Part shown: positions 24,315-61,000 of the stretch, one piece after another
Layout: each line of letters begins with the position of its first letter
How positions within the stretch are numbered: the first letter of the stretch is position 1
Assembly (NCBI RefSeq): GCF_018143015.1
Contig: NC_054756.1
Span: 24,407,440 to 24,471,439, forward strand
Source of the DNA: Lytechinus variegatus
Taxonomy: Eukaryota > Echinodermata > Echinoidea > Temnopleuroida > Toxopneustidae
Length of the DNA stretch: 64,000 bases
Reading direction: 5' to 3'
Notes under the pieces: model-generated
Databases searched by the model: none
The model's input: only the letters and a program-made list of their open reading frames with translations
Told to the model about the DNA's origin: nothing
Translations under genes and position numbers: made by a program

Positions 24315-24320
24315 TTTATT
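24315..24320 (-). terminator. Poly(A) signal AATAAA overlapping the gene 2 stop codon
   Basis: On the minus strand the end of gene 2 reads TTG TGA ATAAAG, so the last A of the stop is the first A of a canonical AATAAA. It would give a 3' UTR of only a few tens of bases if used. Confidence 0.45.
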
Positions 24321-25073
24321 CACAAAGAATACAGTTCGTTTTCAACCATCTCCATTTCATCAAACTGATCAACAGAAAACGAGTCATTAGCTTTAGCGTA
24401 GAGATACTGGTCACCATCGTGTCCAACCGGCTTTCCTCGGAATTTATCGGGCATCGCGTACAAACTGCCGACATCTTCCGAAGTATCATCCGAAGGGTTT
24501 CGATTTCCATTCTTATCTGGCATGGCATACAGACTGTCCTTATCTTCCGAGGTGCCGTTTCGTTCGCCGTTCTTATCGGGTGCAGCGTAAACGACGCTCA
24601 TTCTGTCGGTCATCTTCGCCGAGGATGTTGGCTGCTTAGGATTTTCAAAAGAAGAGTAGGGTGCAATTCCGAGATTAATTTCGTCGTAGCCGTCCTGTGC
24701 TCCGCTTCCGTTCTTGTCAGGCGTGGCGTACAGGACGCTTAATCGGTCGTTGCTGTTCTGTTTAATCGCAGTGGTGCCACAAGAAGCATATGACGTCAGT
24801 TCTGTGTCTGGGATTTCATCCATTGTCTCCTCATATATATTCGATGATTTCCTGGGACTCAGATTAACAAGGAGAACATTTTTGTTTCCTCTAGAAGAAT
24901 TCGCGTTACTCTGTGCTCGTGCCCCAGGTTGGAAGCTTCTGGTGGATGACGCCTCTGCCATTGCACCGTTGCGGATACCGAAGTCATTTATCTCATCGTA
25001 TGCTTGAGGCCTACCGACTGGAGTCAACGTCGCTCTTTGTGAAGAAGCGATACCCTTTCTTCGCTGTCGTGAC
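24320..25073 (-). CDS. Gene 2 exon 8: cytoplasmic tail with repeated Tyr motifs
   Basis: The last exon has acceptor 'aaattacag', completes an Arg codon and runs 250 residues to TGA at 24320-24322. It starts with a basic stop-transfer patch (SRQRRKG). Tyrosine motifs in order are AYDEIN, IYEETM, LYATPDKNG, GYDEIN, VVYAAPDKNG, SLYAMPDKNG, SLYAMPDK, YLYAKA and ELYSL. YDEI and YEET resemble Src-family SH2 ligands (pYEEI type). The YAxPDKNG unit repeats about four times with Asp/Gly/Ser spacers, so the tail grew by internal duplication. No kinase, TIR or death domain is present. Confidence 0.85.
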
Positions 25074-41562: not shown

Positions 41563-41663
41563 CACTGATGAATCTGGAAATTAATTGAAATCGAGTCAAC
41601 CAGGCTATTTCTCCATGATGTTTAGCAGGTGAATTGTGGGATATACAAGGGTGGTTGTGGTCA

Positions 41664-41818
41664 GTGGCGTACATAGGCAAATTCGTCCGCCAAAAAATTT
41701 GACAAGCAAAAACAAAGGTCTTTAAGTTAAAAGGAGCGGGCCACTTGTGGCTCTTCAGGGATCAGTTGTGACTCGCCAGGGGGGCAGTCTGCCCCCCCCC
41801 CATGTAGGTACGCTAATG
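41664..41818. repeat. Small repeat with GTGGCGTACATAGG end and C-run, unit 1 copy
   Basis: 'cagtggcgtacatagg' on the left and 'tgtaggtacgctaatgg' on the right are roughly inverted, with a CT/C-rich tract before the right end. The copy at about 55105-55275 in unit 2 shows it predates the duplication. Confidence 0.5.
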
Positions 41819-42390
41819 GTTGTGTTGAACTAGATGGCAAAAGTACAATTTTAAAACATTCGTGTCAAAGAGAAAATAATGTTCACAGTCAATGTCGGTA
41901 GAAATTGATCAACAGTTATTGTGATTTCGACCATTATTTTCTTTGGTATACAGTATCTTAAGTTATGTTAATCAATTTGTAAGTCGTATTCAGGAGAATG
42001 AATTCAAAATAAGGTGATGATTACCATTTTATGTATGTTCCATGCATAACATCTGAGAGGCAGATTTCACCCCTTTGTCTTATTTACGACGAGCGGGCGA
42101 GGACCCTCTTTAAACTATATCAATGCATGAAGATACCAAGAGCTGTTATGATTATCAGGTTTTTGATAGAGTACTCCAAATTGTCTCGCTATATTTCAAT
42201 ACATAACTTCATGACACGTGCATTCCGGAAACTAAAAATTTTCTTGGTAGAGGGTATGAAGTATGTACCTGGTTTCACAAACTTTCTATCTCAAACGAAG
42301 GTGGGATGCTGTCAGTACTACGCGACGTGCCTATGCGCGAATTCTATTTCGAATTTCCAATACATTCTAGCGGTTATTGCATCGTTATGC

Positions 42391-42566
42391 AGAAAGCACA
42401 TTTCGGGAAACATGGCCTAAAACGCTACCCTTTCTGGCACTCCCTTTTATGTCACAAAAGAACCTCTTTGTTCGATTTCTATTGAGTCTACTCCACTGAT
42501 CAAATAATTGGATAATAGGCGATCAGATTCATTTTCAGAGCCAAGTTCCTCTTTTACGAACACATC
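42391..42566. promoter_or_regulatory. Conserved upstream block, gene 2
   Basis: It contains GAAACATGGCCTAAAACG, 'tctggcactccctttta' and 'aagttcctcttttacgaaca', matching blocks before genes 1 and 3. It lies about 0.8 kb upstream of the gene 2 start. No TATA box was recognised. Confidence 0.35.
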
Positions 42567-43659
42567 TTATTTATAGAACGTGTGAGAATCTCGCTCTAAA
42601 GTGATTGTTTTTCTTAATGGTAAACAATCCTTATCCCAAAACAACAGTGTGTTTCAATTTATCCTTACTCTTATGTATCGTTTTAGGTTGTCACTGATTC
42701 AAAATTATTCGCAGAATAATTCAGAATTATTACTATTTATTTTTTTTTTGCTCTCCCCCCCCCCCCCCCTCTCTCTTTCCCATATACTACTGCACATTCT
42801 TGCCATATTTTCAATTTATTCAAGTTTCAAAGAAAATTTTCAAATAAAAGGTGATTCTATTTCATTATGTTTAATGAATAGTTTTGTGATTTATTTGTGT
42901 CTTCTTGTACATTCACGATATCATCTTTCGACCTCAAAAATATTACAATATGGGAAGATTTTTGTTTTTAAATCAATTTCTCAATACATTATCAAGGAAG
43001 AAAGAGAGAAAGTAATCAAATGATCAATGTTCATGAACAATAATTGTATTTCCAAATATTTCATTCGCCTAATTTTAAAATGCGCGTTTTTTTATTTTTT
43101 TTTCCTAAAAGATTTATTGCTATTATAAAGGGTTATATTATTAAATGTACTCATTATACCAACTAAATAAGCCCCCCCCCCCCCTCTCTCTCTCTCTCTG
43201 TCTCTACTTTTCTCTCTTTCTCTTTATCTTCTCGGCACTATGAGTAAATCATTTTGCTATTTCAGATAAATACTTCCTAAATATCAGGAAATAGCCTTTT
43301 TCATCATGTAACCAAAATCAAATTTCGAATGAAACAGAAATGACTAAATTAATAAATGTATCGTATGTGTATAACATTCGAGTATGGAAATTACATACCA
43401 TGAAGCCATAACCATCTGGTCATTGAATTTATTTTTTAAACACAGTGGAACAAGCCAGAGTACATTCGTACAAAATCTAAACCAAAATAGATTTTACAAA
43501 TCTTTTTCTGTTTCATATGACTACCATCATGCCCTTACACGTATGATTTGTCAGTGACGACGGGGTCTAATGAACCTTCCATACATGATATACGCAAGAA
43601 CACATTTGACAACCACATTCCCATGCTTCATTTTATTGCCGAGAAAAATATATTTTATG

Positions 43660-44108
43660 TATTTATTCATTTCGTTTTGTTTACCCAGGGTTACCCCATC
43701 GGTGGACTAAGCACTGCATACATGTACAAGTAACAAATACATACATGAAATAAATAAAAACAATGAAAAAGTATAAAACAACGACGAAAATATGTTCAAA
43801 GAGACAAGCAACCTGCAGGACATACACGCAGTCATACTGAAGTACATGTTTGTATGTAGAGCAAAATTCAAAATATATATTGTGCATATGCAAATCCATA
43901 TAAGTGTATATTCCCTATGATCATATGTTTATTGATAAATTTTGTGTTAACTTGATTGCTCGTCCCTGTAATCAGCTAGATAGGGGTAGTTCTTTTTTAT
44001 TAAGTAGTTTCTCGCTCTCCAATAAGATATAGAGAAGGACTGCCTCGAAACTGCACTACGGGTACTACTATCCAGCTGATTCCAAAGAATGGCAGCGCTG
44101 TGAGAAAA
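43660..44108 (-). mobile_element. 5'-truncated LINE (CR1/L2-like), unit 1 copy
   Basis: On the minus strand a frame reads SAAILWNQLDSSTRSAVSRQ, then SFSISYWRARNYLI, and stops at 43947-43949. This matches the usual C-terminus of CR1/L2-type reverse transcriptase proteins (lWNxLp...R...sFk). A 3' UTR with 'ggtaaccctgggtaaacaaa' and an A/T-rich tail follows to about 43660. Everything upstream of the last 50 or so residues is missing. The same copy is in unit 2. Confidence 0.7.
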
Positions 44109-44313
44109 TTATATGTGTATAAAATATTACATAATAAGTGGTCATACAATTAAAAAGTCTTCCCCTAAATGCGTAAACCGTATTCTTCTCCACTTTCACA
44201 ACTTGAGTATGTCCGACGTTACACACACCAATACACACACTAATCCATCCTCACACATAAAACCTCCCACCCACACACGCACATACCCTCCCCCACATAC
44301 ACAAACATATATG

Positions 44314-44665
44314 GAAGACCCGTGGTGTAGTGGTTCTGACTCTCGCCTGGTAAACAGAGGGTCGTGTGTTCGATTCCTACCGCGGTCTAGCGTCCTTTGG
44401 CAAGGCGTTAATCCACACTTTGCCACTCTCGACCAAGGTGCTAAATGGGTTCCCGGTAGGATGCGAAAGATATTGTATGTTTGATTTTGCCAGCGCCAAA
44501 ATGTGGCTGCGATGAATGCAAGGAATTCTCCCAAGGGAGTGGAAATTGTGCACTTTTCGTGCTTGATTGAAATGATTCCAATGACTCGGGTAATAATATG
44601 CTGTAACGCGCTTTGGGCCATTCTGGGAAAAGCGCTTTATAAAAATTGGTTATTATTATTATTAT
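44314..44665 (+). mobile_element. tRNA-derived SINE, unit 1 only
   Basis: A tRNA-like head (CGTGGTGTAGTGGTTCTGAC, B box GTTCGATTCC at 44368-44377) and a body follow. The 3' end reads 'gggaaaagcgctttataaaa' then (ATT)n. Probable target duplications ATATG lie at 44309-44313 and 44664-44668. The equivalent site in unit 2 (about 57660) has no SINE, so it inserted after the duplication. It sits just downstream of gene 3. Confidence 0.8.
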
Positions 44666-44736
44666 ATGTGTGGTTGTGCGTAAGAGTTTTTGTGGGTGAA
44701 GGTGCTGGTGTGTGTGTGTGTATGAGTATTCCTTCC

Positions 44737-44974
44737 TTAGATCATATAGGAGTGGGGTGGTGCACTGGTGTCGTCAGGATCCAATACATTGGCACGTTTA
44801 TGTTCGTATATCTGAGAAGAGTAGTGAACATCGCCATCAGATGTTGCCGATGGATCAGATTTTCTGACATCCTCGATATCATGATAAAAACCTGTATCTT
44901 TTTCAGGCAAACTTGATGACTGGAACAAATCTACTTGTTGTGTCTTCTGATCCTTGTTAGGGTCTTTCATCATC
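44737..44974 (-). CDS. Gene 3 exon 7: cytoplasmic tail
   Basis: The acceptor 'cactaaag' completes a Lys codon; then MMKDPNKDQKTQQVDLFQ and on to the stop at 44737. Tyrosine motifs are GFYHDI, VHYSSQ, IYEHK and a C-terminal SYMI. YSSQ fits the STAT3-type YxxQ pattern and YHDI the YxxI pattern (family knowledge); whether they are phosphorylated is unknown. Confidence 0.8.
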
Positions 44975-47900
44975 CTTTAGTGTATCAAGAAGTTAAGACA
45001 AAAATGCAATAGGATAAGTCGAGTGCGTATCAAGAATGATAAACAAAGAGGCACGGCATTCTGATGAATCATATAATAAGATGAAATTTTACTCTCAAGA
45101 TGTCAATCCCCTGTTAGAGCATTAGTTATTATAAAGATTTCGATTTTTTTTTTCAATACTTGGACGCCCCTTGATTATACGGGTAACTGCTTGGTTGGGA
45201 AGATCATTTATGTTTTGGCCTAAATATTACTTTGAGTTGTCTTTGGACACAAAGCGAATATTTAAATGGTTAAAGATCAGGTGTTTTATTCAAATTAAAT
45301 GTATGATTTTATCTAGTTTGCGATACAGTTATATGCTTCTGCTTTCCGAAAGTCAGTTAATGTGTAAACATCTACTCCTTATGTTAATAATACAAAACTT
45401 TGTAGAAGTAGGGGGACTCACTTTCGGATTCGAATGATGTATATTACCGAGAGGATGAGAAGGACACTAAGGATAATGATGACAACACCTTCACCAACTA
45501 CGGCACCAAAATCTGTAGAGATTACAAATAATATGCAGTATGCGTAGATCGAAAATTACTCAAACTCGTCACAGGTATCATATGAATAAGTGCATTTTAT
45601 TGCATTTCTGTGGTTATCATATTTAAGCACTGAATCAATATAATTTTATTGCAACCGGTAGCGATATGTTTTCTATTCTTATCCTTCTTACTGGCCCTCA
45701 TATGTTTTTTTTTGTTAAATGATGAAAATAAACATATTTCTTTAGAATTTCATATGACTAGAGTTACTCTGACTTAGTCTCTAATATCAAATTGACCACT
45801 AAAATACCATTACTTTCATTTTAGAGGCACGTTGGTAACTTATTCATATCAGAAAAGAATGGCGTCTCTTTTTAAAAAAATGATCAATTTTGTATAATTA
45901 CAAGAGCTGTTACAATATTGCTGGGGTGTTGGGGAGAAGGTTGTGGTCAGTGGTGATGAAGTCAGATCGTCCCTTGGACTATGGCCACTGGTCCTGTCAG
46001 AACTTGGTTGATAGGTCATCACTTCCGTGTGGGGGCTTACTTCTTGTATCTCCTCAGTTGACCATGTTGACCCAATAGTAGGTGTGGTTTCAATAGTCTC
46101 TGTTACTATGGGTTAAGCATGTCATGTATACTTTAGTAAATTGCAAATGCCTCGCACTATAATGATGATAATAGTAATAACGATTATTATGATAATAATA
46201 ATACAAAATACATCATGATAATGCTAAAAGAAAATAATAATGATAATAAGAATCAAAGTAAGAAGAAGGAGTCGTCGAAAAAGACGAAGGGTCAATGTGT
46301 GATGTGTCAAAAGATTATTTAAAGAACATATCCGTTATCATCATCTTCATCAATAACAGCACCATCATCATCACCACCACCACCATTATATTCATCATCA
46401 TTATCAAGAGTCTCTATAAACTTCTTTTTTCTTAGTTTGTTTATGGATTTCCATTCTCCTCTATTTATTATATCCTATTAGCTTTGGGGACTGTCATACC
46501 TCCATTCGCATTATGATTATGGCATTTGCTTTTCTTTTACAAAACCAATGTTGAATGAACAATGATAATTAATATTAAATATTGTTTGATATCATCTTTT
46601 AGGTATTTTTAGGGGTTGCGTTTTGGGGAATTATTAAGATTTATTTGTTTCATTATATCATTCATTATTGATATTTATACTTTCTACGTATCATATTATT
46701 TTTTGTAAAAAAAAATGTATCATTTACGAATGCAGGAGAAATATAAATAAACAAAAGTGCATCATTCCATGTCAGCTAGGTCTTGATAGATACCTCATTA
46801 TCGAGGAAATAATGATCTATTAAGTTTAAGATTGGTACCCACTTGTAAACACAGCTATGTATCGCACTCCACCACAGCTCTCATTCCTGATTTACCCGAA
46901 AAGAGCTATCATTAATTTTGGATGTAACTGGCTTGTTCATATAACAATTTTGTTAATAATAAGCGAAACTTTGAAATGTCATAACTTTCTTATTTTACAT
47001 CCGATTTCGATGAAATTTTCAGCATTGTCCTTGTCTGAATTTTCTTTATTGATTCAAATCAACATTTTTCTGAGGTGGACTTAGGGTTAGCATGTTGAGA
47101 TCAAGGCGTACCCTTTCATTCAATTATAGATATGAATATTAGAACTACCGAAGTTTATGATAGCTCTTTTCAGGTAAATCACGAAAGTCAGAATGTTTTT
47201 TTAAGTGTGTGTGTGTCCAATGTATATTTTGGTCAAGTTTTCGTTCATGTTGTGTATTTCCGAATGGAATTCCGGGATACACATAACACACAAGATCTGT
47301 TAACGTATAAGCAACAATATAACACAATTTGACTCACTTTCGTCAAGAGATGGAGGTTGTCCATATAATATACATGTACTCAATTTATGTTTGAAATGGC
47401 TTTACCTGGAGTTTTTCTTGCCAACTACCCCTATAAAATACCTAGGCGCCTATACCCTCGCCTAGGTTACATTCAATTGGTGGTATTTCGATAGCCATAC
47501 ATATCTATATTTCTAGGTTAGACTAGGTTTATACCAAGGTTTTATCATCAGAATACTACCCATAGAGTTCAAGAATGATACTCACTGTTGAATACAGCTA
47601 TGTTTCCTGCCCCACCACAGCTGTCCGTGGGATATCCTGAACATGCAACATGGCATTGATCGTCCGAATGCTTTTCATGTTTAGTATAGTTATCACTTGC
47701 TTCACCACAGTAACATTCATTTTCATTTGTAACACCGGCGAATGTATAGTTAGCTGCGGTAGACCCTTGACAGAACTGGATGCAATAAGGAATGGTCATC
47801 ATTGAAATATTTACCAGACTTTCGCCTGACAACACCCTCTCACTCCTCATGTCCACAAAACATCCAAGATATCCCTCACCTATGAGAAAGAATTATATGG

Positions 47901-50900
47901 TGTTAGACATCGCTGGAGCCCAAATGCATTTTATAGACATGATAGAACTGACCTGACTGACATGGGACAAATTCATGTTACGCTACATTTAGCTTAACAT
48001 TCTACGAATTTCATATTCACTCTACTTCCCTAATCAATTTATGGTAAAATGGAGTTACCCTATATACACCATTTATTTATATATCTATTCATTATTTATT
48101 CGGCACTTCAAACATATTCAAAATTACAAAGCAATATGAAACATTACATAAAATGACATAAAACTTGTATGGGTACCTGCAATATTTGATAGCAGTTTAC
48201 CCAGTTTATCAGTTGGTGGGCAGGGAAGAGGAGAGCAAACTTGATACTGTGAAATGATGTTCCCTCCGCCCAACCAACCGATGCACTGGGAATACTGGTA
48301 AAATATAGCATGAAGAAAAATACGACAATCGCGGGAATTATGGTAAATAATAAAGGCATAAAAAAAGTATTACGCTTTTATAACAAATATACTCAAGATA
48401 GAAAATCATAAATTAGAAATAGAAATATATATTGTTAAAAACAAAATGTGAAATCGTGCAGGGTACGTACTGAATTTATATGAGAAGCCAGACTTATACA
48501 GAATCTGAAACATTGAATTAAGAGTTGCTTGAAAATAATCCAATCAGAAAATGAATAAGGATTATCAAATTGAAAAATGATCGCACTAAATGTAGATGTC
48601 CCATTTTAACTAAATGTTGTTGAAAGGGCTCAAAAGGGTCTAAGAATAAGGTTATCAGTATACAGATAAGTCAATGTACAACTGAAATTTAGGAATATAC
48701 ACTCGGCAAAGAAAAAGTTCTTGGACACTTACAAGAGTTAAAATATTCCATATACATGTAAATGATTAAAGGCAAATCCATGTAAATGATTAAAGGCAAA
48801 TTATTGTATGTCTTCATGACAATAATCCTCTTCCAGTATGACATGGCATTTTCTTGTAAACAGTCATGCATGAGTGGTTAAATGCTTTAAACAATAGCAA
48901 TGTCAGCAAAAGAAACTTGCAAGGAATGGACCATTGAAATGCTAATGATCATGGCCATCCTGAAGGCATACATTCAACAAATTCAACAGGTGGTTATCAA
49001 TTGAATTGAATGCTTAGCGTCTTAGCGATGCATCATGAGATGCATGAGATAGATCATTTGGACACTCACTTTCAAGATGCAGCTTTCCAACCAAATCGTG
49101 CATGAGCAATAGGAATGTTGCAGTCTGGGCAGTCATTTAGACAAGTGGCTCGATATTTCCAAGTTTCCCCAACAACAATGTCAAATTTGAACCAGCAGTA
49201 TTTGGCTACTGATGAAGTTAGAGGCCGCCCTAGGAGTGGTCGACCTAGGGCCACCACCCCTGCAGAAGATAGGATAAGGATGCATGCGTTAAGAAGGCGA
49301 TTTGTCACTGCACCAACTATCGGATCTGGAATTCATGCTGCAAGAGGTCGAGGTGCCCGTCGAGTTTCTTCTCAAACGGTCAAAAACAGGCTGCGTGAAC
49401 ACGGCTTGTACTCCTGCACAACCTGCACGAAAACCAAAGCTGTTGCCTCGACACATTCCAGCTCGTTTGGGTTGGGCACGTGATCATGCATGGTGGGCAA
49501 TACGAGACTGGAGCAATGTCCTTTTCACGGATGAATCGAGATTCTATCTCCATCATAATGATGGTAAGGTTCGTGTATGGAGGAAGACACGTGAAAGATT
49601 CAGAGACTGTTGTGTGCAGGAGAGGCAACAAGGCCAAGGGGGAAGTGTTATGGTCTGGGGTGGAATTATAGATAACAGGGTAAGACACAGCTCATTGCTG
49701 TCAATGGAAACCTCACCATTCAGCGCTACATCAATGAGATTTTGGAGCCAGTTGTCGTACCCATTGCTACAAATCATGGAGAATGGTTCCTTCTCATGAA
49801 TGACGATGCACGTCCCCATCAAGCTAACATCGTCCAAAGATTTATGGATGACCACAATGTGCAGCGCTTGGATCAATGGCCCGCTTGTTTACCAGACATG
49901 AACCCGGTTGGGATCAGCTCGGAAAATCGGTAAATCAAAGAGTTCAACCATGAGACACTCTTCAAGATGTCCGGCGTTATCTCCTGGAAGAATTAGACAA
50001 CATTACCCCAGAGAAAATTCTCCGACTTGTGACAAGCATATCGATGTGCTGCACTCATTCAGAGTCAGTGTGAACAAACGAGAAATTGAATTTTATTTTG
50101 CTTATGCCAAGATACTGAAATTTGACATTTTTTAATCGTTTAACTTTGACTTGAAATTCCAGTGGAATAGTGACGCATCCAAAGTGAATAATTTTGCTCT
50201 TCTCTTTTATAGTGGAAGTTGACTTTAAGTTTGCTTTTATCGTTGAATGAATAATTATGATGTCAGTTCGAAAAACAGGGGGCCCACTATATGCTTCCCT
50301 GTGGCACCCTTGAAGCACATTACCCCCACTGAGAGAGGTTACCTCTAAAGATGACACACTGTCGACGGCCATAAAAAACTATTTGATCAAATGCCACGGA
50401 GTACCACATATGTTGCACTGCAGAGATAGTTTGTTCAGGAGGTTATCATGTGGTATTTTATCGACAGCTCGTGAAATATCAAGGGAAATCACTTCTACTG
50501 GAAAAGAAGGACTTTCCAGACAATGCATTTGAAAAAATCAAATTCTTCGGTTTTATGCAAATAATCATTGCAAATAAGATATCTTGCTTAGCATGCTAAG
50601 AATGCATTACCATATGTGGAAGAACTGGGAAGAAAGTATAAGAAATACTTTAGAAATGCTTGAGGTAATATTAATAAAATATGTATAGACTTTCCTGTAA
50701 CAAAAAAAATGACGGGCATTCAGATCAAAGTATTACGTGCGTTACATATTTGATTAACTCTCGTTATTTAGAATACATTCCAAATAGTTATTGGACGTTT
50801 TTATGTTTTCTCTTATCACAATAACGGTTTGGACAGGTGTAAGATGTTAAATTCGTAATGATTAATATGACATCGTTCCAATGTGTCTATGTCAAATAAA

Positions 50901-53900
50901 TGTCATTCTTGCAATTTCAATGGATAATAACTGCAAAAATCTTATTTATTATTTATATTATACCCCTAACCTTGACTAGGAAGAATTGTGACAGTAGCTA
51001 AATATACCCCTACGCAGTGTAACGGTACATAAAACTTTAAAAATTGCTAGCAAAATATTTCAGTTTGTTTAATCCCTTGTGATATTGCGAGTTATAAGGT
51101 CAGACTAGATATATTTCATCATGATTATGTATGATGGTGAATAGAGGCCATTCAAACATAAAAAATAAACAAAAACAATAATGATTTAAACAATCAATGA
51201 AACAAAATAAGAATGAAGTGTAAATTTTAATATGAGGTTAAATAAAAAAAATCGGGCAGTGGATTTTGAGAACAATGAAAGCGGAGAGATGATTTAGGTC
51301 TCGATCGAGAACTTTGATAAGTAAAACATATTTATATTAGCAAGTGGTGTACTGTATCTCCCCAGTCCTAGTTCATAGCGTTTTCTGTGTTTTATTATGG
51401 TGGGTTTGTTGGTGGACAATGTGACTCCACAAGATATCAATTTAATTTGCACTGTTAACCAAATTAACTAATTAATATTAAAAAAAAACAGTGAAAATTG
51501 TAAAGGTGTTATTGGCGTAGGCATGGAATTTCATATAACTATGCCAAAGAAAACAAATATCTTAATTGCAGTAACATGAGGGGAGGATGAGACAACATAT
51601 CTTAATTTTGGATGTAAAATAACATTTTGTTGATAATATTTCGAAGTTACAGCGAAAGGATTAAACTAATATCATGATTTCATCAAAGTATATTTAGCTT
51701 ATAAAGGTGTATGATCATAGCGAACATGACAAGTGTGCAAACCAGTAGGCCTAATTATACATAAATGACCAGAACTTTGTTATTTCTTGACCATTTTCTG
51801 TAATTTAGGTATCAAATTAAAGAGGAGATATTGAACTTTTCAAAAATGTGGTTTTCTTTTTGAAACCCAGATACCCCCCGCCAAATGAGTTTTTGATATC
51901 CTTTCTTCAAATTGTATTTGCTCACTCATGCGTGAATGAGAAATAATGTAAGTAATATCAGATGAAAGAAGAGATTCTAAGCTTTAAATTGGTAGGTCAT
52001 TTGTCTATTTTATTTATGATTAAGTAATGATAAATGATCGCTAAATATCGGTTTCGTTTTTTCTAGGTCGCACTGTATATATGTAGTTCATGCTATTAAA
52101 TTTTTCTGAACATTGTACAATAGCTGGCTATACTGAAGAAAACAGGAAGCTTAAGCCTCAGTGTGGAACATTCGCACCATCGCACTCACGTACCATCTTA
52201 ATTACAGTGAAAATTAGACATAGTTCAGGGGTATGTCAAATATTTAAGTTACATTTAACGACATAGAAGCCGTTTAAACAATTTTAACGGAAACCTTACC
52301 ATGGCAAGAAGCTGCTCCTGCTACAGAACATCCCATTACCAATGAACACTCCGACAGGTTAGTATCATCTGAAGGATTAAGTAAGAACAGTGACATCGAA
52401 TTATTTTTTAAATATATCATGCATCTCTCAGGCTTGACGAATAGAAAGAAGCAACATTTAATTCTAGGCCACACCTCTTATTCTTGCAATTCATACATGT
52501 AAAATTCAGAATAGCAACTTAAAGTTCAATTGTTGTGGAGCATCATACATGATGACCTCAAAGAATGTCGCCAATAATTATTGATTAAATATGTGGAAGG
52601 GAGGCTAAGGGTGCTTAACCCCCCCCCCACACACACACACACACACTTCTTTTACTAGTTGTAGACAAGAAACAACACATGAAAATTACCATATGATTGT
52701 GATTTATTATCCTCCCCGATACTCGCGCACACACATGCACACCCTTTCAAAAACGTTTCATCGCTCCTGATTTTTTTTTTTTTTGGGGGGGGGGGTAAAT
52801 GTTGGATTTTGTAGAAATAAATTAGGTTTTTTTTTCAAACTGCAAAACTAAAAAGCAAATCACATTGACGATCTGCTTCAGAACACACCTAAGTTTGTTT
52901 ACCCCGATTTCATTCATATAATTATCAGAAGTCAAGAACAATTAATATCTATCTAATAAACTTAACTGATATGCCATTACCTTCAGCACACAATAACCCA
53001 TGGTTGGGAGTTGAATTCTGTCCATAAGACGTCTGCTTTATTGCTCTGTTTGCTCCCTGGAATCCTAAATGTTTACAGATTAGGATGACATCAGTGGTAT
53101 CGATATTAGTCCCACATACTGTCTCCCATGTCCCGTTGTCTATCTTGATCTCAATTGTTCCTTTATTAGAATTCGGCCCGCCAACAAGTTGCACATCTGT
53201 CAACAACAATACGAGGGAATGAAAAAATAATAATTTTTTAATTATCGAAAAGCACTCTCGATTTCATTGAAGTTTGCAATAATTTTTCTGTATATTGAAC
53301 AACCCTTCACCGAGGTGTATTAAGCTCTAAATTTACAGACAAATATACGCGTTTTAGCTATCCTTTGCGGGTGTACGTAGGGCAATTCGTTTACTCATGT
53401 TATCCCATTTCTGAATATCACAAAATCAAAGTATTGACACTAAAAAGTAATTTTTACCCTTTCCTTTCAACTCTGTAGCGTCCCAAAACTGAACTCAAGA
53501 TTTGAGGTTTGATCACGTTGATGGAGAACCCAAACTTTCAATACTTTGAAACCATGTAAACAGATATCAGGACACTATTATCACCATTTTCATCATGTCA
53601 TGTTTGCAACCCCTTTATTTAAAAACTTTGCATCTACATTCCAATTTGACAGGTACATCAGTTTACTGTCCAATCTTCAGCAGAGTTTTTTTCCGTGAAG
53701 TCATATAATTTGAAATTCATGATAAACAAGTATTTTCTTAGCAAAGACAAAGAGAACTTTCTCGGTAAGTAATAATGCCACTTCATTTGGAAGATGGATA
53801 CCCTAATACTTGTGACCGAAGTATTTTGAAGTCTCGGAACTTAGAAAGGAGACCAGAAACTGCTCCCAATAAATTCACCGTTATGATATATTTTGGAATA

Positions 53901-55005
53901 CAAATTCCATCGGCTTCAGATATGATAACGACACGACTAGAACATCTATTTCACAGAGAACTCCATGTGCCCGTGGTTTAATGTATAGCCTTTTTAATAA
54001 TTCATGTTACTGTCTTTTTACCATATTGACGGTGCCAACACCACCTTGTAAACATAAATTGTCCAACTCCGACTGTTTTCTTTTTTTCATGTGCGATTGT
54101 TATTTATGTGTTTGAATGGACCCTATTTACCTAATTGCTTGAAAACAGGGAACGCTGTTATGTAACCACCCGTATGATCTGCATCAACGCTGCACAGCTA
54201 TAAGTCCTCTCCGAAAATCCTATAAATGGATATTGAGGATTGTATATCCTACCAGAAGAAGGTACGTAGCGCATTGTTTTTCGAATCTGGTCGATTTGAG
54301 AGACAACTGCCATACCACCTGAGGTATTGTCATGTTGTTAAAGGAGAATGAAACCTTTGGAACAAGATAGCTTGTATGAAAAAGAAAATCAAAGAAACAG
54401 ATTAACGGAAGTTTGGGAAAAATCGGACAAATAATGAAAAGTTATGAGCTTTTCATTTTGAATATTGCGATCACTAATGCTATGGAGATCCTCATATTGG
54501 CGATGCGACAAAGATGTGTGATGTCTCTTGTGAACAACTCCCCCATTACTTTAGTATATATTTCACTTAAACTGCTTCTTTTATCACATCTATCAGTAGA
54601 TCATGTGTAATACAGACTTTTAAAGAATACATCATGGATAAAGAGTTGGTATCACCATAAGAAAAAGCAAAAAGAAAGTTGTCCACATGAGACATCACAC
54701 ATCAGTGTCGCATTGCCAATTGGAAGATCTCCATAGCATTAGTGACTGCAATTAATGCTCATAACTTTCTCATTATTTGTCCGATTTTTCTCAAACATTC
54801 TTTGTTATTATTCTTTGATTTTCTGTTTTGACACAAGCCTAGTTGTTTCAAAGGTTTAATTCCCCTTTAAGGTCTTCAAAATGACGAGGTTTTGAATTCG
54901 GGTTTTGTGGTTACCTGTTATGACGCACGTGCTGACCCGGCTCCAAATCACCACCAGGAACATAATGGTTATCCGATTACAATCCATGCCGAATAGTGTT
55001 GCCAT
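44737..55005 (-). CDS. Gene 3: complete chimeric SRCR-WSC receptor with short tail
   Basis: Seven exons: 54915-55005, 52981-53196, 52300-52368, 47586-47879, 45914-46105, 45422-45512 and 44737-44974. They sum to 1191 bp in frame, 396 residues. Layout: signal peptide 1-30, SRCR 31-125, WSC 126-223, Thr/Ser/Pro stalk 224-287, membrane helix about 288-317, tail 318-396. The first four exons lie in duplication unit 2 and are near copies of gene 2; the last three lie in unit 1 and match gene 4. The gene therefore spans the unit junction and is a fusion of a gene-2-type ectodomain with a gene-4-type stalk, helix and tail. All splice sites look usable and no stop interrupts it, so it may be expressed. 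Confidence 0.8.
45422..45512 (-). CDS. Gene 3 exon 6: transmembrane helix
   Basis: A 91-bp exon with acceptor 'tctctacag' and donor GTGAGT, phase 1 in and phase 2 out. It encodes FGAVVGEGVVIIILSVLLIL then SVIYIIRIRK: about 23 hydrophobic residues and a basic cytosolic end. Confidence 0.85.
45914..46105 (-). CDS. Gene 3 exon 5: Thr/Ser/Pro stalk
   Basis: A 192-bp phase 1-1 exon with acceptor 'aacccatag' and donor GTAACA. It reads TETIETTPTIGSTWSTEEIQ, EVMTYQPSSDRTSGHSP and SSPLTTTFSPTPQQY. It is a mucin-like spacer with many O-glycosylation candidates and is 65-residue-scale like the gene 4 exon. Confidence 0.75.
46843..46884 (-). pseudogene. Stump of a WSC exon at the duplication junction
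   Basis: The minus strand reads ESCGGVRYIAVFT then a GTGGGT donor, the last 14 codons of a WSC exon. The rest of the exon and its acceptor are missing: homology is cut at 46884/46885. It aligns with the 3' end of the gene 4 WSC exon (ESCGGDGHITVF) and marks the right breakpoint of the duplicated segment. Confidence 0.85.
46885..46912. other. Short inverted templated insert at duplication junction
   Basis: The 28 bases beginning TCCTGATTTACCCGAAAAGA are the exact reverse complement of sequence at about 29530-29557 in unit 1. The unit 2 counterpart (47157-47184) has since changed at two positions. It lies exactly between the exon stump and the start of unit 2. Confidence 0.8.
46918..47085. repeat. 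3' part of AAGTCCACC MITE starting unit 2
   Basis: The sequence matches 28793-28960, including 'acatccgatttcgatgaaat' and 'gaggtggactt'. Only the right-hand part of the MITE is present because the duplication began inside it. Confidence 0.8.
47586..47879 (-). CDS. Gene 3 exon 4: WSC domain
   Basis: A 294-bp exon nearly identical to gene 2 exon 4, with the same splice sites. It has eight cysteines and the motifs YLGCFVDM, ECYCGEASDN and DSCGG. It is the first exon boundary transcribed before the chimeric junction. Confidence 0.9.
49078..50060 (+). mobile_element. Decayed Tc1-like transposase, unit 2 copy
   Basis: This is the counterpart of 31762-32792, with the same helix-turn-helix start, FTDESRF, MVWGG, DDARPHQA and DMNP motifs. 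Different small indels from the unit 1 copy show independent decay after duplication. The region for the third catalytic residue is damaged by a deletion (PVGISSENR in place of PIEQLWDQLGKS). Non-functional. Confidence 0.85.
51760..52075. repeat. TA-flanked MITE, unit 2 only
   Basis: A 316-bp insert relative to unit 1 (site about 38632-38645), flanked by TA. The ends CATAAATGACCAGAAC and, as complement, CAGTGCGACCTAGAAAAAAC are imperfect inverted copies. The right end resembles the CAGTGCG terminus of 4972-5379. Confidence 0.7.
52300..52368 (-). CDS. Gene 3 exon 3: second part of SRCR domain
   Basis: A 69-bp phase 1-1 exon with the same sequence and splice sites as gene 2 exon 3, encoding SECSLVMGCSVAGAASCH. 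Confidence 0.85.
52981..53196 (-). CDS. Gene 3 exon 2: first part of SRCR domain
   Basis: A 216-bp phase 1-1 exon. It differs from gene 2 at few residues (GPNSN for GPDSN, FQGAN for FKGAS). All three SRCR cysteines of this half are kept. Confidence 0.9.
54341..54867. repeat. TA-flanked MITE with long inverted ends, unit 2 copy
   Basis: The counterpart of 40898-41424, identical in length (527 bp) and flanks. It shows the element was present before the duplication. Confidence 0.85.
54915..55005 (-). CDS. Gene 3 exon 1: signal peptide
   Basis: An ATG at 55005 gives MATLFGMDCNRITIMFLVV, IWSRVSTCVITG and a GTAACC donor at phase 1. It differs from gene 2 at two residues. The internal start MDCNRI is an alternative, as in gene 2. 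Confidence 0.75.
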
Positions 55006-55865
55006 CACTGATGAATCTGGAAATTAATTGGAATCGAGTCAACCAGGCTTTCTCCATGATGTTTAGCAGGTGAATTGTGGGATATACAAGGGTGGTTGTG
55101 GTCAGTGGCGTACATAGGCAAATTCGTCCGCCAAAAAATTTGACAAACAAAAAAAAGGTCTTTAAGTTAAAAGGAGCGGGCCACTTGTGGCTCTTCAGGG
55201 ACCAGTTGTGACCCCGTTGTGACTCGTCAGGGGGGCAGTCTGCCCCCTCTGCCCCCCCCCGTAGGTACGCTAATGGTTGTGTTGAACTAGATGGCAAAAT
55301 TACAATTTTAAAACATTCGTGTCAAAGAGAAAAGAATGTTCACAGTAAATGTCGGTAGAAATTAATCAACAGTTATTGTGATTTCGACCATTATTTTCTT
55401 TGGTATACAGTATCTTAAGTTATGTTAATTAATTTGTAAGTCGTATTCAGGAGAATGAATTCAAAATAAGGTGATAATAATTATAATTACCATTTTATGT
55501 ATGTTCCATGCATAAAATCTGAGAGGCAGATTTCACCCCTTTGTATCATTTACGACCAGCGGGCGAGGACCCTCTTCAAATTATATCAATGCATGAAGAC
55601 ACTTCGAGCTGTTATGATTATCAGGTTTGTGATAGAGAGTACTGCAAATTGTCTCGCTAGATTTCAATACATAGCTTCATGACACGTGCATTCCGAAAAC
55701 TACCTCTTTTCTTGGTAGAGGGTATGAAGTATGTACCTGGTTTCACAAACTTTGTATCTCAAACGAAGGTGGGATCCTGTCAGTACGACGCGACGTTCCT
55801 CTGCGCGAATTCTATTTCGAGTTTCCAATACATTCTAGCATGTCTAGCGGTTATGGCATCGTCAT

Positions 55866-56045
55866 GCAGAAAACACTTTTCGGGAAACATGGCCTAAAAT
55901 GCCACCCTTTCTGGCACTCCTTTTTATGTCACAAAGGAACCTCTTTGTTTGCTTTCTATTGAGTCTACTCTACATTGCTGATCAAATAATTGAATAAAAG
56001 GCGAACAGAATAATTTTTAGAGTCAAGTTCCTCTTTTACGAACAC
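55866..56045. promoter_or_regulatory. Conserved upstream block, gene 3
   Basis: The copy of the block at 42391-42566 created by the duplication, with GAAACATGGCCTAAAATG and 'caagttcctcttttacgaac'. It is informative only together with the more distant gene 1 copy. Confidence 0.3.
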
Positions 56046-56649
56046 AACCTATTTAAAGATCGTGTGAGAATCTCGCTCGAACGTGATTTTTTTTTTCTTA
56101 ATGGTAAACAATCCATATCCCAAAGCAACAGTGTGTTTCATTATATCCTTATACTCTTATCTATCGTTTTAGGTTGTCATTCAAAATTATTCACAGAATA
56201 ATTTAGAATTATTACTATTGAAAATGTTCCCTCCCCCTCTCTCTCTCTCTCTTTCCCTCTATTTCTCCCTCTCTCTCATATACATGATGCACATTCTTGC
56301 CATATTGTCAATTTATTCAAGTTTCAAAGAACAATTTCAAATAAAAGGTGAGTTTATTTCAATATGTTTAATGAATGGTTTTGTGATTTATTTGTGTCTT
56401 CTTGTACATTCATGATATCATCTTTCTACCTCAAAAATTACAATATGGGAAGATTTTTTTTCAAATTAATTTTTCAATACAGTATCAAAGAAGAAAGTAA
56501 ATAAACAATCAATGTTCATGAACAATTGTATTTCTAAATATTTTATTTGCCTAAATTTAAAATGCACATTATTTATTATTTTTTCCTGAAAAATGTATTG
56601 CTGTTATAAAGGGTTATATCATTAAATGTACACATTATACCAACTAAAT

Positions 56650-56712
56650 AAGCCCCCCTCTCTCTCTCTCTCTCCCTCTCTCTCTCTCTCTCCTTCCCTC
56701 TCTTTCTCTTTA
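56650..56712. repeat. CT microsatellite
   Basis: (CT)n with CCCTC interruptions. A shorter C-run plus CT run is at the unit 1 counterpart (43173-43205). Confidence 0.85.
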
Positions 56713-57034
56713 TATTCTTGGCAATATGAGTAATTTTTTTTGCAAGACCAATTTTGAGATTTCAGATAAATACTTGCTTAATATCAGGAAATAGCCTTTT
56801 TCATCTTAGAACCCCGGGCCAAATCAATTTCCGAATGAAACAGAAATGAATAAAGTAATAAATGTATCGTATGTGTATAACGTTCGAGTATCATAGCCAT
56901 ACTATACATGTATGATTTTTCAGTGACGACGGGTCTAATGAACCTTCCATACATGATATACTCAAGAACACATTTGACAACCACATTCCCATGCTCCCTT
57001 TGATTGCCGAGAAAAACATTTATATTTTATTTAT

Positions 57035-57495
57035 TTATTTATTTCGTTTTGTTTACCCAGGGTAACCCCATTGGTGGACTAAGCACTGTTTTTCTTGGGG
57101 GCCCTGCATACAAGTAACAAATACATACATGCAATAAATGCAAACAATGGAAAGGTATCAAACAAGGAAGAAAATATGTTCAAAGAGACAAGCGACCTTC
57201 AGGACATACACTCAGTCATACTAAAATACATGTGTGTATGTAGAACAAAAGTCAAGATTGTGCTTATGCAAATCCATATAAATGTAGATTCCCTATAATC
57301 ATTATGTTTATTGATCAATTTTGTGTTTACTTGATTTGCCCGTCCCTGGGATCAGTACAATAGAGGCAGTTATTTTTAATTTAGTAGTTTCTTGCTCTCC
57401 AATAAGATGTAGCGAAGGATTGCCTCGAAACTGCTCTACGGGCATGACGGGTATTACTATCATGACTATCCAGCTGACTCAAAAGAATGACAGCG
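57035..57495 (-). mobile_element. 5'-truncated LINE (CR1/L2-like), unit 2 copy
   Basis: The counterpart of 43660-44108, with the same reverse transcriptase C-terminal block in degraded form and the 'ggttaccctgggtaaacaaa'-type 3' UTR. Confidence 0.65.
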
Positions 57496-57843
57496 CTATG
57501 AGACAAATATATTTGTATAAAATATTATGTAATAAATGGTCATACAATTAAAAAGTCTTCTAAATGCATAAACCATATTCTTCTCCACTTTCACACCTGG
57601 ACTATGTATGACGACACACACCCACATTCACCCACCCTACACACCCAAGCTCCCTCACACACAAGCACATGCTCTCTCTCTCTCTCTCTCTCTACACTCA
57701 CATAAAATATGTGCGTGCAAGTGTTGGTGGGTGAGGGAGGGTGCATTTGTTTGTATGTGTGTGTGAGGGAGTGTGTATGTATTCCACCCTTACATCGTGT
57801 AAGAGTGGTGTAGAGCAATGGTGTCGTCAGGGTCTATCACGTT

Positions 57844-57849
57844 TTTATT
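57844..57849 (-). terminator. Poly(A) signal AATAAA containing the gene 4 stop codon
   Basis: The minus strand reads TAC AAA TAA AAACG, so the TAA stop lies inside AATAAA. Gene 3 reads TACGAACATAAACG here, with neither stop nor signal. Confidence 0.4.
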
Positions 57850-58019
57850 TGTATATCTGAGAGGAGTAGTAACCATCGCCGTCAGATGTTGCCGATGGAT
57901 CCGATTCCCTGATATCCTGAATATTCCGATAAAAACTTGTATCACTTTCAGGCGAACTTGATGACTGAATCAAATCCACATGTTGTGTCTTCTGATCCTT
58001 GTTAGAGTCTTTCATCATC
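57845..58019 (-). CDS. Gene 4 exon (last): short cytoplasmic tail
   Basis: Acceptor 'actctacag', then MMKDSNKDQKTQHVDLIQSS and an end at QIYK and TAA. Tyrosine motifs are SFYRNI and GYYSSQIYK. YRNI fits the Grb2-type YxN pattern; the gene 3 equivalent is YHDI. The tail is 21 residues shorter than in gene 3. Confidence 0.8.
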
Positions 58020-61000
58020 CTGTAGAGTACAAAAATTGAAACAAAATATGAGACTAGAAAAGTCAAATGGCGTATAACAATTAAGTATTGGTGAAGGATT
58101 CTGATGAAACATAAGATGATTTTTCTTTAAATAGAGCATTTGGTATTCTAAATTTTTTCAACTTAATTGGACGTCCCTTGACCTTTTGGGTAACTGCATC
58201 ATGGGTTGCAATGGTCATTTATGAATCTTGACCAGAATATTACGTTACCTTTGGGCTTAAAACCGAACATTATCATCGCTAAATCATTCCTAATAACAAT
58301 AAGATCGGGTGTTTGCATTAAAAATGAATGCATGATTTTGCCTAGTTATATGCTTCAGCTCCCAGAAAGTGATGTTCCATTGTGTAAACATCTACTCCTT
58401 TATGTTAATAATACAAAACTTTGTTTAAATAGTAGGACTCACTTTCGGATTCGAATGTTGTATATTACCGAGACGATGAGAAGGACACTAAGGATAATGA
58501 TGACAACACCTTCACCAACTACAGCACCAAAATCTGTAGAGATTACATATTATGCAGTATGCGCATATCAAAAATTACTAATTTTCGTTTAGGTTAAGGC
58601 ATATATGTATGATATAAAGTGCATTTTATTTTTATTTTTATTTTTATTTCCATTGTGTTTTATTCATGTGAATATATGCATTTTGTTGCATTTCTGTGGT
58701 TATCCTTGTTTTATTACTTAATCAATGTTACCTTATTGCGACCGGTAGCGATATTTTTCTATTCTTCTCCTTCTTATTTGTCGTTATAAAGGGCCAATGT
58801 TTGCTATATGATGAACATAAACATATTTCTTTAGGAATGATATATGTAATTTTATTTGACTAGAGTTACTCTGACCTACAGTAGTCTTTAATGTCAAATT
58901 GACCACTTAATACCATCATTTTCATTTAGAGACACGTTGGTGGCTGCTTCAAATCAGAAAAGAATGACGTTCCTTAAAGAAATTAACAATTTTGTATAAT
59001 TACAAGAGCTGTTACAATATTGCTGGAGCGTCGGGGAGAAGGTTGTGGTCAGTGGTGATGAAGTCAGCTCGTCCCTTGGACTATGATCACTGGTCTTATC
59101 AGAACTTGGTTGATAGGTCATCACTTCCGTTTGGGGGCTTTCTTCTTGTATCTCCTCTGTAGACCACGTTGACCCAATAGTAGATGTGGTTTCACTGGTC
59201 TCAGTGTGAACTATTGGTTAAGCATGTCATTATACTTTAGTCAATTGCAAAAGTCTCGCACTATAATGATAAAGATAATAATAACGATAATTATGATAAT
59301 GAAAAAATGTTTCTCTTTTTTAATCAAGAGAACATATCCCAAATCATCATCATCATCATTACCACCACCATCATCATCATTATCAGTACCATCGGAGTCT
59401 CTATAAACTTGTATTTTTAATGAACATAAGTTTATACATTTCGATTCTCCGTAAGTTGAACCCGTGGAAGCAAGCCAGGAGGGCCTGCCGTCCCTGGAGG
59501 ATGACCTGTCCTCCGAGACGCATGCCCTTATTATATCCTATTACCTTTCGGGAACTGTCATACCTCAAAGCGCACTCCATTGTGGCATTTTGTTTTCTTT
59601 TGCGTAAACAATATTGAAAATGAACCATAAATATCTGTTTACATTGCTTTGATTCTTTCATTCAGATGTTGCATTTTTAGAAAAAAATAATAATCTCTGT
59701 ATCATCTACTAATGAATGGAGAGCAAATTTGACAAAAGCAGGCATTCAAAGAAAAATATTCATTTGTGCTTCATTCTAAATGGCAAGATCGGCTAGATGC
59801 ACCATTGTCTAGGAATCCCGGGGGCCACTTCCATTCACGAGTGGATACCATGCGCGACCATGGGGTCTCGAAAAGCACCCTAAACACGTAATTTCCATAT
59901 TCTGAAAATGCACCCCTTAACAAGTAGTGGCGAGTGAAACCCTACCCTTAACAAGTATAGGAAACAAAACGATACTCTTGGCAAATATTCCCTGAAATGA
60001 ACCCCTAAACAAGTACAGGAATGTTTTATTCTTACGGGTCTTTCGGTCGTCGGCTCACCCTATTTGGTTTAGTACGACCCCACCTTCTGCACCTCGCGCA
60101 AATCGGACTCTAAACACGAAGTGTTGGGGCAAAAAGGACATCCTTTATGAAACATTTTAATTTTGTTTTATCATCCCCGCAAATTCGACCCTAAATACGT
60201 AATTTTCCTAGTGAAATAGACACTTTTTTTTTATTTTTTTTTGTGTTTTTGACACCTAATCACGTTACGTATGTAACGTGCCCTATCGTGAAAAAGACAT
60301 CCTTTTTACATGTTTTTTTTTTGTCGCGCAATGGTATCCACTCGTCAATGTAAGTGGCCCCCCGGGCTAGGAATGATGACTTAATGCAGGGGCAGCTCCC
60401 GCCAATAAGGGGGCCGATTTTTTTCACCCATTTTCTCCCCGATCGGCTGCTCAAAGTTGATTTTTGTTTGTTTCTATGGGCGGGTTGTCCAGTGGCGTAA
60501 TGAGCCAACATGTTTGAGGGGGGTCGATACGACATATCGCGTAAAACTAATAAGAAGCAAAAATGTTTAATACAAAAGTCAAAGTTTGTGATAAATTTTG
60601 ACATAACATTTGGAAAATAATAGGCCTATATTTCACCCTTATCCCTTTCCTTTTCATTTTCAACAATAATGCGAGCGCAAATATAAACTGTCATAAAATG
60701 GAGATTTTAAGTAGTTTTTCATAGAGTTGATATATAAAGAATCTTATGGAATAAACAAAGACATTATGTAGCGCACAGCGCAAAAAGCTGAAAATTATAT
60801 CACACAATAAATTGGACATTTTACAGAGCACTTTAAAAATCAATACGAAAATCAAACAAAATAATGAAAGCTCGATGTCCGAGCTTAAATATGCTTTGTA
60901 TATTGACTAAAAAAATAATATTTTAACCCTATCTAGGCCGGGGGTGTCGGAGGCCCCCCCCCCCCCCTCCCCTCCTCAACGATTCGCGCAATATTTTCGC

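Follow-up and report, generated by a model that had tools for sequence, protein, structure and literature searches.

Gene 3 and its neighbours

The window, a 64,000-nucleotide stretch of Lytechinus variegatus DNA (contig NC_054756.1, positions 24,407,440 to 24,471,439), lies within a same-strand array of 14 SRCR-WSC receptors in 331 kb, 6 with a long tail and 8 with a short tail. Gene 3 was modelled from the sequence on the minus strand (55005-44737), with seven exons, all on that strand, encoding 400 amino acids. Introns 1-5 are in phase 1 and intron 6 is in phase 2, the borders are GT/AG, and the frame is open throughout. Exon 1 (54915..55005) contains the start codon and a hydrophobic leader and shares 89/91 bases with gene 2; exons 2 (52981..53196) and 3 (52300..52368) encode the first and the last part of the SRCR domain (211/216 and 69/69 bases), and exon 4 (47586..47879) encodes the WSC domain (287/294 bases), giving 656 identical bases out of 670 for exons 1-4. 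Exon 5 (45902..46105), a Ser/Thr-rich stalk of the short-tail (Y) class, showed 88% amino acid identity to gene 4 and fell into one clade with g4/m8/m9 in the tree of Y-class genes. Exon 6 (45422..45512) encodes the transmembrane segment (hydropathy 3.17; 93% identity to gene 4), and exon 7 (44737..44974) a short cytoplasmic tail that contains YHDI and YSSQIY (60 of its 78 residues align to gene 4, at 75% identity). The relative of the 5' half is gene 2 and that of the 3' half is the g4/m8/m9 clade, which identifies gene 3 as a chimera.

The earlier note had proposed that exons 1-4 nearly equal gene 2, that exons 5-7 match gene 4, that gene 3 is a chimera joined between two homologous units with its frame preserved at the join by phase-1 introns, and that a recognition domain has been moved to a different tail. 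All of this was recovered, the chimera by a switch of homology and by a scar at the join, and the domain moved being an SRCR-WSC ectodomain. The uninterrupted frame also stood, with the protein length corrected from 396 to 400 residues.

SRCR and WSC were the only domains of gene 3 above the Pfam cut-off. The SRCR domain scored 45.1 bits (cut-off 26.1; profile positions 1-81 of 100), and its six cysteines fit group A of the superfamily, group A having six and group B eight per domain according to PMC10855680. The WSC domain spans the full profile (positions 1-82 of 82) with 63.1 bits (cut-off 27.8; E 2.9e-17). Kremen proteins contain Kringle and CUB domains besides WSC. The best solved relatives of exon 4 were Kremen-1 chains (PDB 5fws and others); the WSC domain is common to Kremen-1 and gene 3, but gene 3 has an SRCR domain and Pfam lists neither Kringle nor CUB in it, so that it does not belong to the Kremen proteins.

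Gene 2 (24320..41562, minus strand; 8 modelled exons, 583 amino acids), from which the 5' half of gene 3 derives, has a long tail with four YAxPDK repeats. Gene 4 (57845..62284, minus strand) is of the short-tail class, with exons 3-7 inside the window and a match to exon 2 past its right end (C17:24472269-24472063). Genes 2 and 3 differ at 9 amino acids across the first 224, and none of the motif patterns listed was common to their tails. The gene 2 tail contains four YxxP motifs, by consensus docking sites of the Crk-type SH2 domain, and the gene 3 tail contains YHDI and YSSQIYEHK; a canonical ITIM was absent by pattern from both, only YxxP and YxxI motifs being found. Among the nine Y tails read, YHDI was kept in seven and YSSQIY in eight. 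Genes 2 and 3 are thus neighbours whose ectodomains are highly similar while their tails differ, as in paired receptors.

Duplicated units and the scar in intron 4

Unit 1 (28782..46883) comprises the 5' half of gene 2, intergenic DNA and the 3' half of gene 3, and unit 2 (46909..59300) the 5' half of gene 3, intergenic DNA and the 3' half of gene 4. Positions 28782-46196 align in order to 46909-59300, except where unit 1 contains a 4.2-kb insertion (32967-37155) whose ends are inverted, and scattered unit-2 homology continues to 59628 and at 61245-61310, in intron 4/exon 4 of gene 4. The units had been described as homologous along their length; the collinearity held, but the similarity was far from even. 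Segmentation of the substitutions gave three blocks of 4.83, 1.61 and 12.03% (1.61% versus 4.83%, p = 1.4e-16). The low-divergence block of unit 1 (38498..42065) covers the exons for the leader and SRCR together with 0.5 kb upstream of them, and likely results from recent gene conversion. A sharp age step at 43385/43536, suspected from percent identities, was rejected, since substitution counts place the step at ~42066. To the right of 42066, outside the supposed conversion, the unevenness was also beyond that of 2000 permutations, so unevenness by itself is no proof of conversion.

Between genes 2 and 3, exons 1-4 differ at 14/670 bases (2.1%) and introns 1-4 by 1.3%, 1.8%, 4.7% and 4.5%. A divergence of exons 1-4 above that of the flanking introns, which had been named as evidence against the chimera, was not found overall (2.1% versus 1.3-4.7%); exons 1 and 2 (2.2% and 2.3%) slightly exceed introns 1 and 2, so there is no sign of strong constraint there. 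Synonymous divergence was 0.027 for exons 1-4 versus 0.179 for exons 5-7 (Fisher p = 1.5e-4 on rounded counts). The uneven blocks and the gap in dS call for a further explanation, either gene conversion at a later time or a 3' half with its own history; the mosaic fits gene conversion and, read from one haplotype, would also be compatible with several duplications. The near-identity of exons 1-4 is no clock for the age of gene 3, and its description as new was not upheld by these blocks and dS values.

We examined the join in the direction of the minus strand. Exon 4 is followed by 0.67 kb of gene-2-type intron 4 (gene 2's own intron 4 is 1.3 kb), ending in one arm of an inverted-repeat element (46913..47082, minus strand; 94% to 28782-28954) that is cut at the join. 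The complete element lies in gene-2 intron 4 (28374..28963) and is self-inverted along its length; unit 1 starts inside it, at 28782. Another copy is present at 3075-3634 (69%), and a genome search found matches on many contigs, indicating a dispersed element. Next comes a 29-base insert (46884..46912, minus strand), an exact inverted copy of gene-2 intron 4 sequence, with 0 mismatches to its template copy (29531..29559, plus strand) and 2 to 47157-47185; none of 100 shuffles gave a match. It is followed by a 36-base relic (46847..46882, minus strand; ESCGGVRYIAVF) that derives from a WSC exon's 3' end, and then by short-tail-type intron sequence. The relic gave a local score of 68, and the best of 2000 resampled sequences gave 38. 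The gene-2 side of the join starts at 28782/46909 and the other side ends at 46883. The join in gene 3 is a non-homologous scar.

Non-allelic homologous recombination between copies of the dispersed repeat was considered as the cause of the join and rejected, since the far side consists of exon sequence and the inverted insert, with no second repeat copy. The relic scored 68 to gene 4 and 67 each to genes 1, 2 and 3. With so little difference among the four paralogs tried, the relic was discarded as proof of gene 4 as donor, and its Y-class origin rests on collinearity. The earlier note had missed both the relic and the 29-base inverted copy.

Tail classes and ectodomains in the array

On the 14-gene ectodomain trees, tail class required 5 changes, compared with a mean of 4.8 for shuffled labels. 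The starred branches force at least 4 tail changes on the WSC and joint trees and 2 on the SRCR tree; in m4 the first SRCR exon lies 20 kb from the WSC exon and its assignment is less sure, and the WSC-only tree is independent of that assignment. A single clade of long-tail genes was rejected by AU runs with gene 3 included or left out (one run without g3 only, another without g3, g5 and m7), extreme p values being taken as rejection and not as exact odds.

Pairs of genes were compared by blastn (E <= 1e-8, 4.5 kb). Homology ended within 50 bases beyond the WSC exon in 42 of the 48 different-tail pairs, the six exceptions being g3-g2, m6 with four long-tail genes, and g1-m9, the last probably a shared repeat. 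Same-tail pairs showed homology past the WSC exon in 26 of 42, m1-m5 having been omitted from the 43 for want of a WSC block.

Outside the window, m6 has the same architecture as gene 3: a long-tail-type intron, then a WSC relic, then a short-tail (Y-type) intron. All 14 non-self matches of the front part of its intron 4 in the 331 kb lie between the WSC and membrane exons of four long-tail genes, and its WSC relic scored 178 (best of 1000 shuffles, 61). The sequence of m6 shows it to be a second chimera. Stops, frameshifts or a lost cysteine were found in m7, the g1 tail and the m6 WSC, and at the ends of the m5, m6, m9 and g4 tails, and some products of the array may therefore be dead. Gene 3 is not a single case; the discordance of tails and ectodomains, together with m6, is best read as recurrent re-pairing of heads and tails across the array. 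In the other genes, reassortment may have come about through ordinary homologous exchange and not in the way seen in gene 3.

Origin of gene 3 and comparison with known systems

The following origin appears probable as a whole: a non-homologous tandem join made gene 3, conversion followed, and re-pairing recurred across the array. A tandem rearrangement would have fused intron 4 of the long-tail gene 2 to the WSC-exon end of a short-tail Y-class gene, the fragment of the WSC exon remaining as a relic within the new intron 4. The 29-base inverted templated insert suggests either replication-based repair with template switching or end joining of the polymerase-theta type. Intron 4 was checked in genes 2, 3 and 4 and is in phase 1 in each, so that a join within it leaves the frame open. 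Subsequent conversion with gene 2 would have held the 5' module (upstream side, leader and SRCR) near-identical. The outcome is two adjacent genes with an almost equal recognition part and different cytoplasmic tails; both would be expressed, and they may share ligands and differ in signalling, perhaps with a benefit.

Within this origin, and compatible with it, the interval from gene 2 to gene 4 may have been duplicated once in tandem, with gene 4 as tail donor and later 5' conversion; this version is possible but somewhat doubtful. The units are collinear through intergenic DNA into gene 4, and exon 6-intron 6-exon 7 groups genes 3 and 4 (99/97) in Y trees that include introns (8 of 9 rows; m5 omitted for length). 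Next to the join and across exon 5-intron 5, however, gene m9 (C17:24257036-24260024, 150 kb away) is nearer to gene 3 (86-90%) than gene 4 is. In addition, the insert equals its template at all 29 positions, for which p is about 0.025 if the join has the age of the 12% block, so the join and the 3' half may differ in age. The attribution of the 3' half to gene 4 in the earlier note agrees with the grouping of exon 6-exon 7, and the sequences do not clearly point to gene 4 as the tail donor.

It is unlikely, though to be weighed seriously, that gene 3 lacks a function and was merely left behind as the array turned over, open by the chance of phase 1 and unexpressed or decaying. For exons 1-4, dN/dS was 0.74 (10 N, 4 S), with no difference from neutrality (p = 0.40), and other array members are damaged. 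Exons 5-7 of genes 3 and 4 gave a dN/dS of 0.42 (binomial p = 0.006); this constraint spans all the time since the two tails split, may partly predate the fusion, and may be located in the gene-4 line. Against decay, 400 codons are open, of which conversion alone could have kept those of exons 1-4; exons 5-7 stayed open despite a dS of 0.18 to gene 4, which a simulation without constraint allows in about 0.5-1% of cases; and the two tyrosine motifs are kept in most Y tails.

That gene 2 overwrote the 5' half of a full-length short-tail gene by homologous conversion, without a new join being formed, is highly improbable. Conversion is probably active at the locus, and the other different-tail pairs switch at the end of the WSC exon, as expected of homologous exchange; but overwriting predicts a single WSC exon leading directly into the Y intron, as in m9 or g4, and in gene 3 the gene-2-type intron 4, the cut repeat arm and the inverted insert precede the WSC relic. 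Heterozygosity is very high in marine invertebrates, and some stretches of the units are only 1.6-5% apart, but two haplotypes or reads wrongly set in tandem deserve hardly any weight, as a false join does not easily make an inverted copy of a nearby intron, other blocks are 12% apart, N bases are absent from the window and the surrounding 331 kb, and another array gene has the same kind of join.

Recurrent tail swapping in the array, as best read from the sequences, would yield paired-receptor-like genes. It is possible, though somewhat doubtful, that one pool of SRCR-WSC heads and two alternative signalling modules, with continuing recombination and with conversion matching heads across tails, form an echinoderm paired-receptor system, an invertebrate one that arose independently of the Ig-type systems of vertebrates, with intron 4, in phase 1 in each of the genes checked, as the swap point. 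If so, its joins are still legible in the DNA, SRCR ectodomain trees may tell little of signalling class, and the array would be a test bed for the rate at which illegitimate joins in a shared phase-1 intron give usable receptors.

No paper in the literature covered combined SRCR, the WSC domain and sea urchin, and the term invertebrate paired receptors occurs in no paper among the matches listed, which does not imply absence. In the accessible part of PMC10855680, 253 of 359 purple sea urchin SRCR genes lie in tandem clusters and WSC, with 36, ranks high among the partner domains, a tandem expansion with a WSC partner like the array; exon loss and exon shuffling between paralogs are discussed there, and that part contains no tail classes. 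The text has no match to 'gene conversion' or 'chimer'. As in gene 3, the Drosophila chimeric genes in the part of PMC4503668 consulted arose by tandem duplication with breakpoints within genes, fusing two genes; those, however, are a genome-wide class of young polymorphisms, whereas the array holds receptors with at least two chimeras of different age.

Among vertebrates, the parallels are the Siglec and CEACAM paired receptors and, by a literature listing, CD300. The consulted part of PMC2832619 describes CEACAM1 and ITAM-bearing CEACAMs as close ectodomains on tails that differ, maintained through conversion and recombination, a pattern that the array may share; in a dog pair, the similar region comprises the first intron, the leader exons and about 1 kb upstream. 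The domains are others; in the array, long and short tails are found in all parts of the ectodomain tree, and non-homologous joins can be seen along with their exon relics. Siglec paired receptors are reported to be neighbouring genes with opposite signalling whose 5' exons and upstream DNA are kept similar by gene conversion; genes 2 and 3 are likewise neighbours, with a 5' module probably kept alike by conversion and tails that may differ in signalling. Siglecs are mammalian Ig-like lectins with known inhibitory and activating signalling and measured glycan binding, whereas the receptors of the array are of the SRCR-WSC type and come from an echinoderm. If our reading is true, the mode of evolution described in these sources for Siglecs and CEACAMs also arose in an unrelated receptor class, in an animal without adaptive immunity.

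Chimeric make-up of gene 3 and the scar at its join

The window was placed at C17:24407440-24471439 in an assembly of 870 Mb and 33 contigs, and exon structures of genes 2, 3 and 4 are sequence-based models. Gene 3 (minus strand, 55005 to 44737) has seven predicted exons encoding 400 residues, and its predicted product reads as a single-pass receptor with a leader, an SRCR domain in which six cysteines were counted, a WSC domain, a Ser/Thr-rich stalk, a membrane segment and a short tail. Gene 2 (41562-24320) is a complete predicted receptor of 583 residues with the same ectodomain layout and a long tail of four YAxPDK repeats; gene 4 is a short-tail gene with exons 3-7 inside the window. Intron 4 is in phase 1 in all three genes. 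Exons 1-4 of genes 2 and 3 were identical at 656 of 670 bases, and exons 5-7 of gene 3 are of gene-4 type, confirming the chimera observed in the earlier note. Synonymous divergence agrees with this make-up, being 0.027 between genes 2 and 3 over exons 1-4 and, between genes 3 and 4, 0.179 over exons 5-7 versus 0.51 over exons 3-4.

Intron 4 of gene 3, where the two homologous units meet, begins with 0.67 kb of gene-2-type sequence (1.3 kb in gene 2, owing to insertions there), which stops within an arm of a dispersed inverted-repeat element; gene 2 carries this element whole (28374-28963). The next 29 bases (46912-46884) are an exact inverted copy of gene-2 intron 4 (29531-29559), the upright gene-3 copy of which carries two differences. 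After this insert, 36 bases (46882-46847) coding ESCGGVRYIAVF represent the end of a WSC exon without its start, followed by an intron of the short-tail class. The relic's score hardly differed between the WSC exons of genes 1-4 (67-68), and the relic was assigned to a short-tail gene because of the intron that follows it. Inverted templated inserts are a mark of template switching or theta-type end joining, and the presence of one here speaks against an assembly fault at the join.

Donor of the tail and age of the join

The 3' half of gene 3 was compared with those of the eight further short-tail loci in the 331 kb. Gene 3 fell in a clade with gene 4, m8 and m9 (array members outside the window) at 100/100 in both the exon tree and the exon 5-intron 5-exon 6 tree. 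Within it, the exon tree grouped gene 3 with m8/m9 (85/88; 90% identity to m9), m9 was nearest over exon 5-intron 5-exon 6 (90%), and exon 6-intron 6-exon 7 grouped with gene 4 (99/97). In the intron adjoining the join, m9 was nearest (85.8% over 415 columns), and gene 4 matched in short pieces only (79-89%). The donor was thus a member of this clade; gene 4 itself, named as the source in the earlier note, is not demonstrable as donor. The m8 locus (C17:24267636-24269466) is an orphan short-tail 3' half highly similar to the m9 one; neither SRCR nor WSC matches occur between it and the next gene.

Substitutions between the units fell into three blocks: 4.83% (28782-38497), 1.61% (38498-42065) and 12.03% (42066-46170). 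In the gene-2-derived part, counts were more uneven than in all 2000 permutations; a clean run as long as the observed maximum of 351 bases arose in 1 of 2000. The region right of 42091 was likewise more uneven than its own 2000 permutations; therefore, unevenness by itself is no proof of conversion. The 1.61% block covers the leader exon, the SRCR exons and 0.5 kb upstream, and is most simply explained by conversion between genes 2 and 3. If so, near-identity is no clock, and the argument that gene 3 is new, drawn from that near-identity, falls away. The 29-base insert differs from its template at 0 of 29 positions (probability 0.24 at 4.8% divergence and 0.025 at 12%), which favors a young join, though 29 bases are few.

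Several repeats were also observed. Gene-2 intron 3 holds a 4.2-kb insertion (32967-37155), with 46-base inverted ends 96% alike, that is not in unit 2. Broken pieces resembling a Tc1/Tc3-type transposase (intron 3, 49106-49933; Pfam matches weak and below cut-off) sit in DNA common to both units. An inverted-repeat element lies in intron 1 of gene 2 (40895-41427) and gene 3 (54338-54870), the two copies also matching each other inverted, and on the 3' side of gene 2, ~115-base tandem repeats adjoin a TAC-rich microsatellite (20150-21010).

Re-pairing of heads and tails in the array

Scanning C17:24230001-24561439, contiguous with the window, identified 14 SRCR-WSC genes, all on one strand; further matches lie outside this interval, farther left on C17. 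Long tails occur in g5, g2, g1, m2, m3 and m10, and short tails in g4, g3, m1, m4, m5, m6, m7 and m9, plus the orphan m8. On ectodomain-exon trees, tail class required five changes, as shuffled labels would (mean, 4.8; 380-393 of 500 shuffles equally low); supported branches by themselves forced four changes on the WSC tree and on the joint tree, and two on the SRCR tree. Constraining the long-tail genes to one group was rejected on the WSC exon, whether all 14 rows were kept (p 1e-56), gene 3 was dropped (5e-32) or g3, g5 and m7 were left out (9e-44); with SRCR and WSC combined and gene 3 dropped, the constraint was also rejected (p 7e-7). Supported WSC clades mixed the tails: g2 (long) with g3 (short); g1 and m3 (long) with m4 (short); and m2 and m10 (long) with m9 (short). 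Together, these sequence comparisons indicate repeated re-pairing of heads with tails. The earlier note was right about the kind of event, and its history and scope were incomplete. A single fusion is less interesting than an array with recurring fusion and head exchange. The SRCR exons of g1 (C17:24413890-24414096) and m3 (24366873-24367079) show no difference and lie within a 4.8-kb stretch 97.5% alike, likely another conversion tract; downstream blocks differ by 9-18%.

Change-over points were scored by blastn (E up to 1e-8) to ~4.5 kb past the WSC-exon start. Homology ended at most 50 bases beyond the WSC exon in 42 of 48 different-tail pairs and ran on in 26 of the 42 scored same-tail pairs. 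The six exceptions were g3-g2, m6 with g1, m2, m3 and m10, and g1-m9, the last probably a repeat; window positions 1472-2357 match, with 91% identity, DNA lying past the m9 tail. By its sequence, m6 (C17:24298658-24290626, outside the window) is another chimera, built like gene 3. Intron 4 of m6 has a front part that matches, in order, the interval from WSC to membrane exon of four long-tail genes; all 14 non-self matches fell in those intervals, with no others in 331 kb. Within 58 bases of this front lies a 44-codon WSC-exon relic, best matched by m1 with a score of 178 (maximum in 1000 shuffles, 61), then a short-tail intron (76-80% to m1) and a short tail. Given an identity of just 67-78% between this front and its relatives, m6 probably predates gene 3 by far. 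Its WSC exon lacks one cysteine present in relatives, and a stop falls late in its tail. No long-tail gene with a short-tail intron was found in the compared pairs; gene 3 and m6 share one polarity, and two cases do not suffice for a rule. In the remaining mixed genes the change-over lies at the end of homology, as would be the case if homologous exchange upstream moved heads between tails.

Constraint and putative function

Exons 5-7 of gene 3 are still open (~0.5-1% expected without constraint), with dN/dS of 0.42 against gene 4, which speaks for function, though this constraint may be partly older than the fusion or lie within the gene-4 line. Against function are exons 1-4, in which no constraint was detectable, and several damaged array members. 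Stops occur near the tail end, after YSSQIY, in m5, m6 and m9, and m7 has several; the gene-4 tail (57845-58019) ends ~20 residues earlier than that of gene 3. The long-tail exon of gene 1 (C17:24404370-24405123) shifts frame midway, which may reflect damage to gene 1 or a sequencing error.

Four YAxP motifs lie in the gene-2 tail, and the gene-3 tail has none but contains YHDI and YSSQIYEHK; among nine short tails read, YHDI occurs in seven and YSSQIY in eight. A pattern search of the gene-2 and gene-3 tails found no canonical ITIM. Phospho-YxxP is described as the consensus for the mammalian Crk SH2 domain, bound also by a choanoflagellate Crk relative (PMC5043372). Genes 2 and 3 are neighbors with nearly one head, similar upstream sequence and different tails, the arrangement termed paired receptors in vertebrates, and gene 3 may act as one. 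In vertebrate paired receptors, conversion is described as keeping heads alike, as in Siglec-11/16 and the CEACAM receptors (PMC2832619), and genes 2 and 3 share with these the likeness of heads and the difference of tails.
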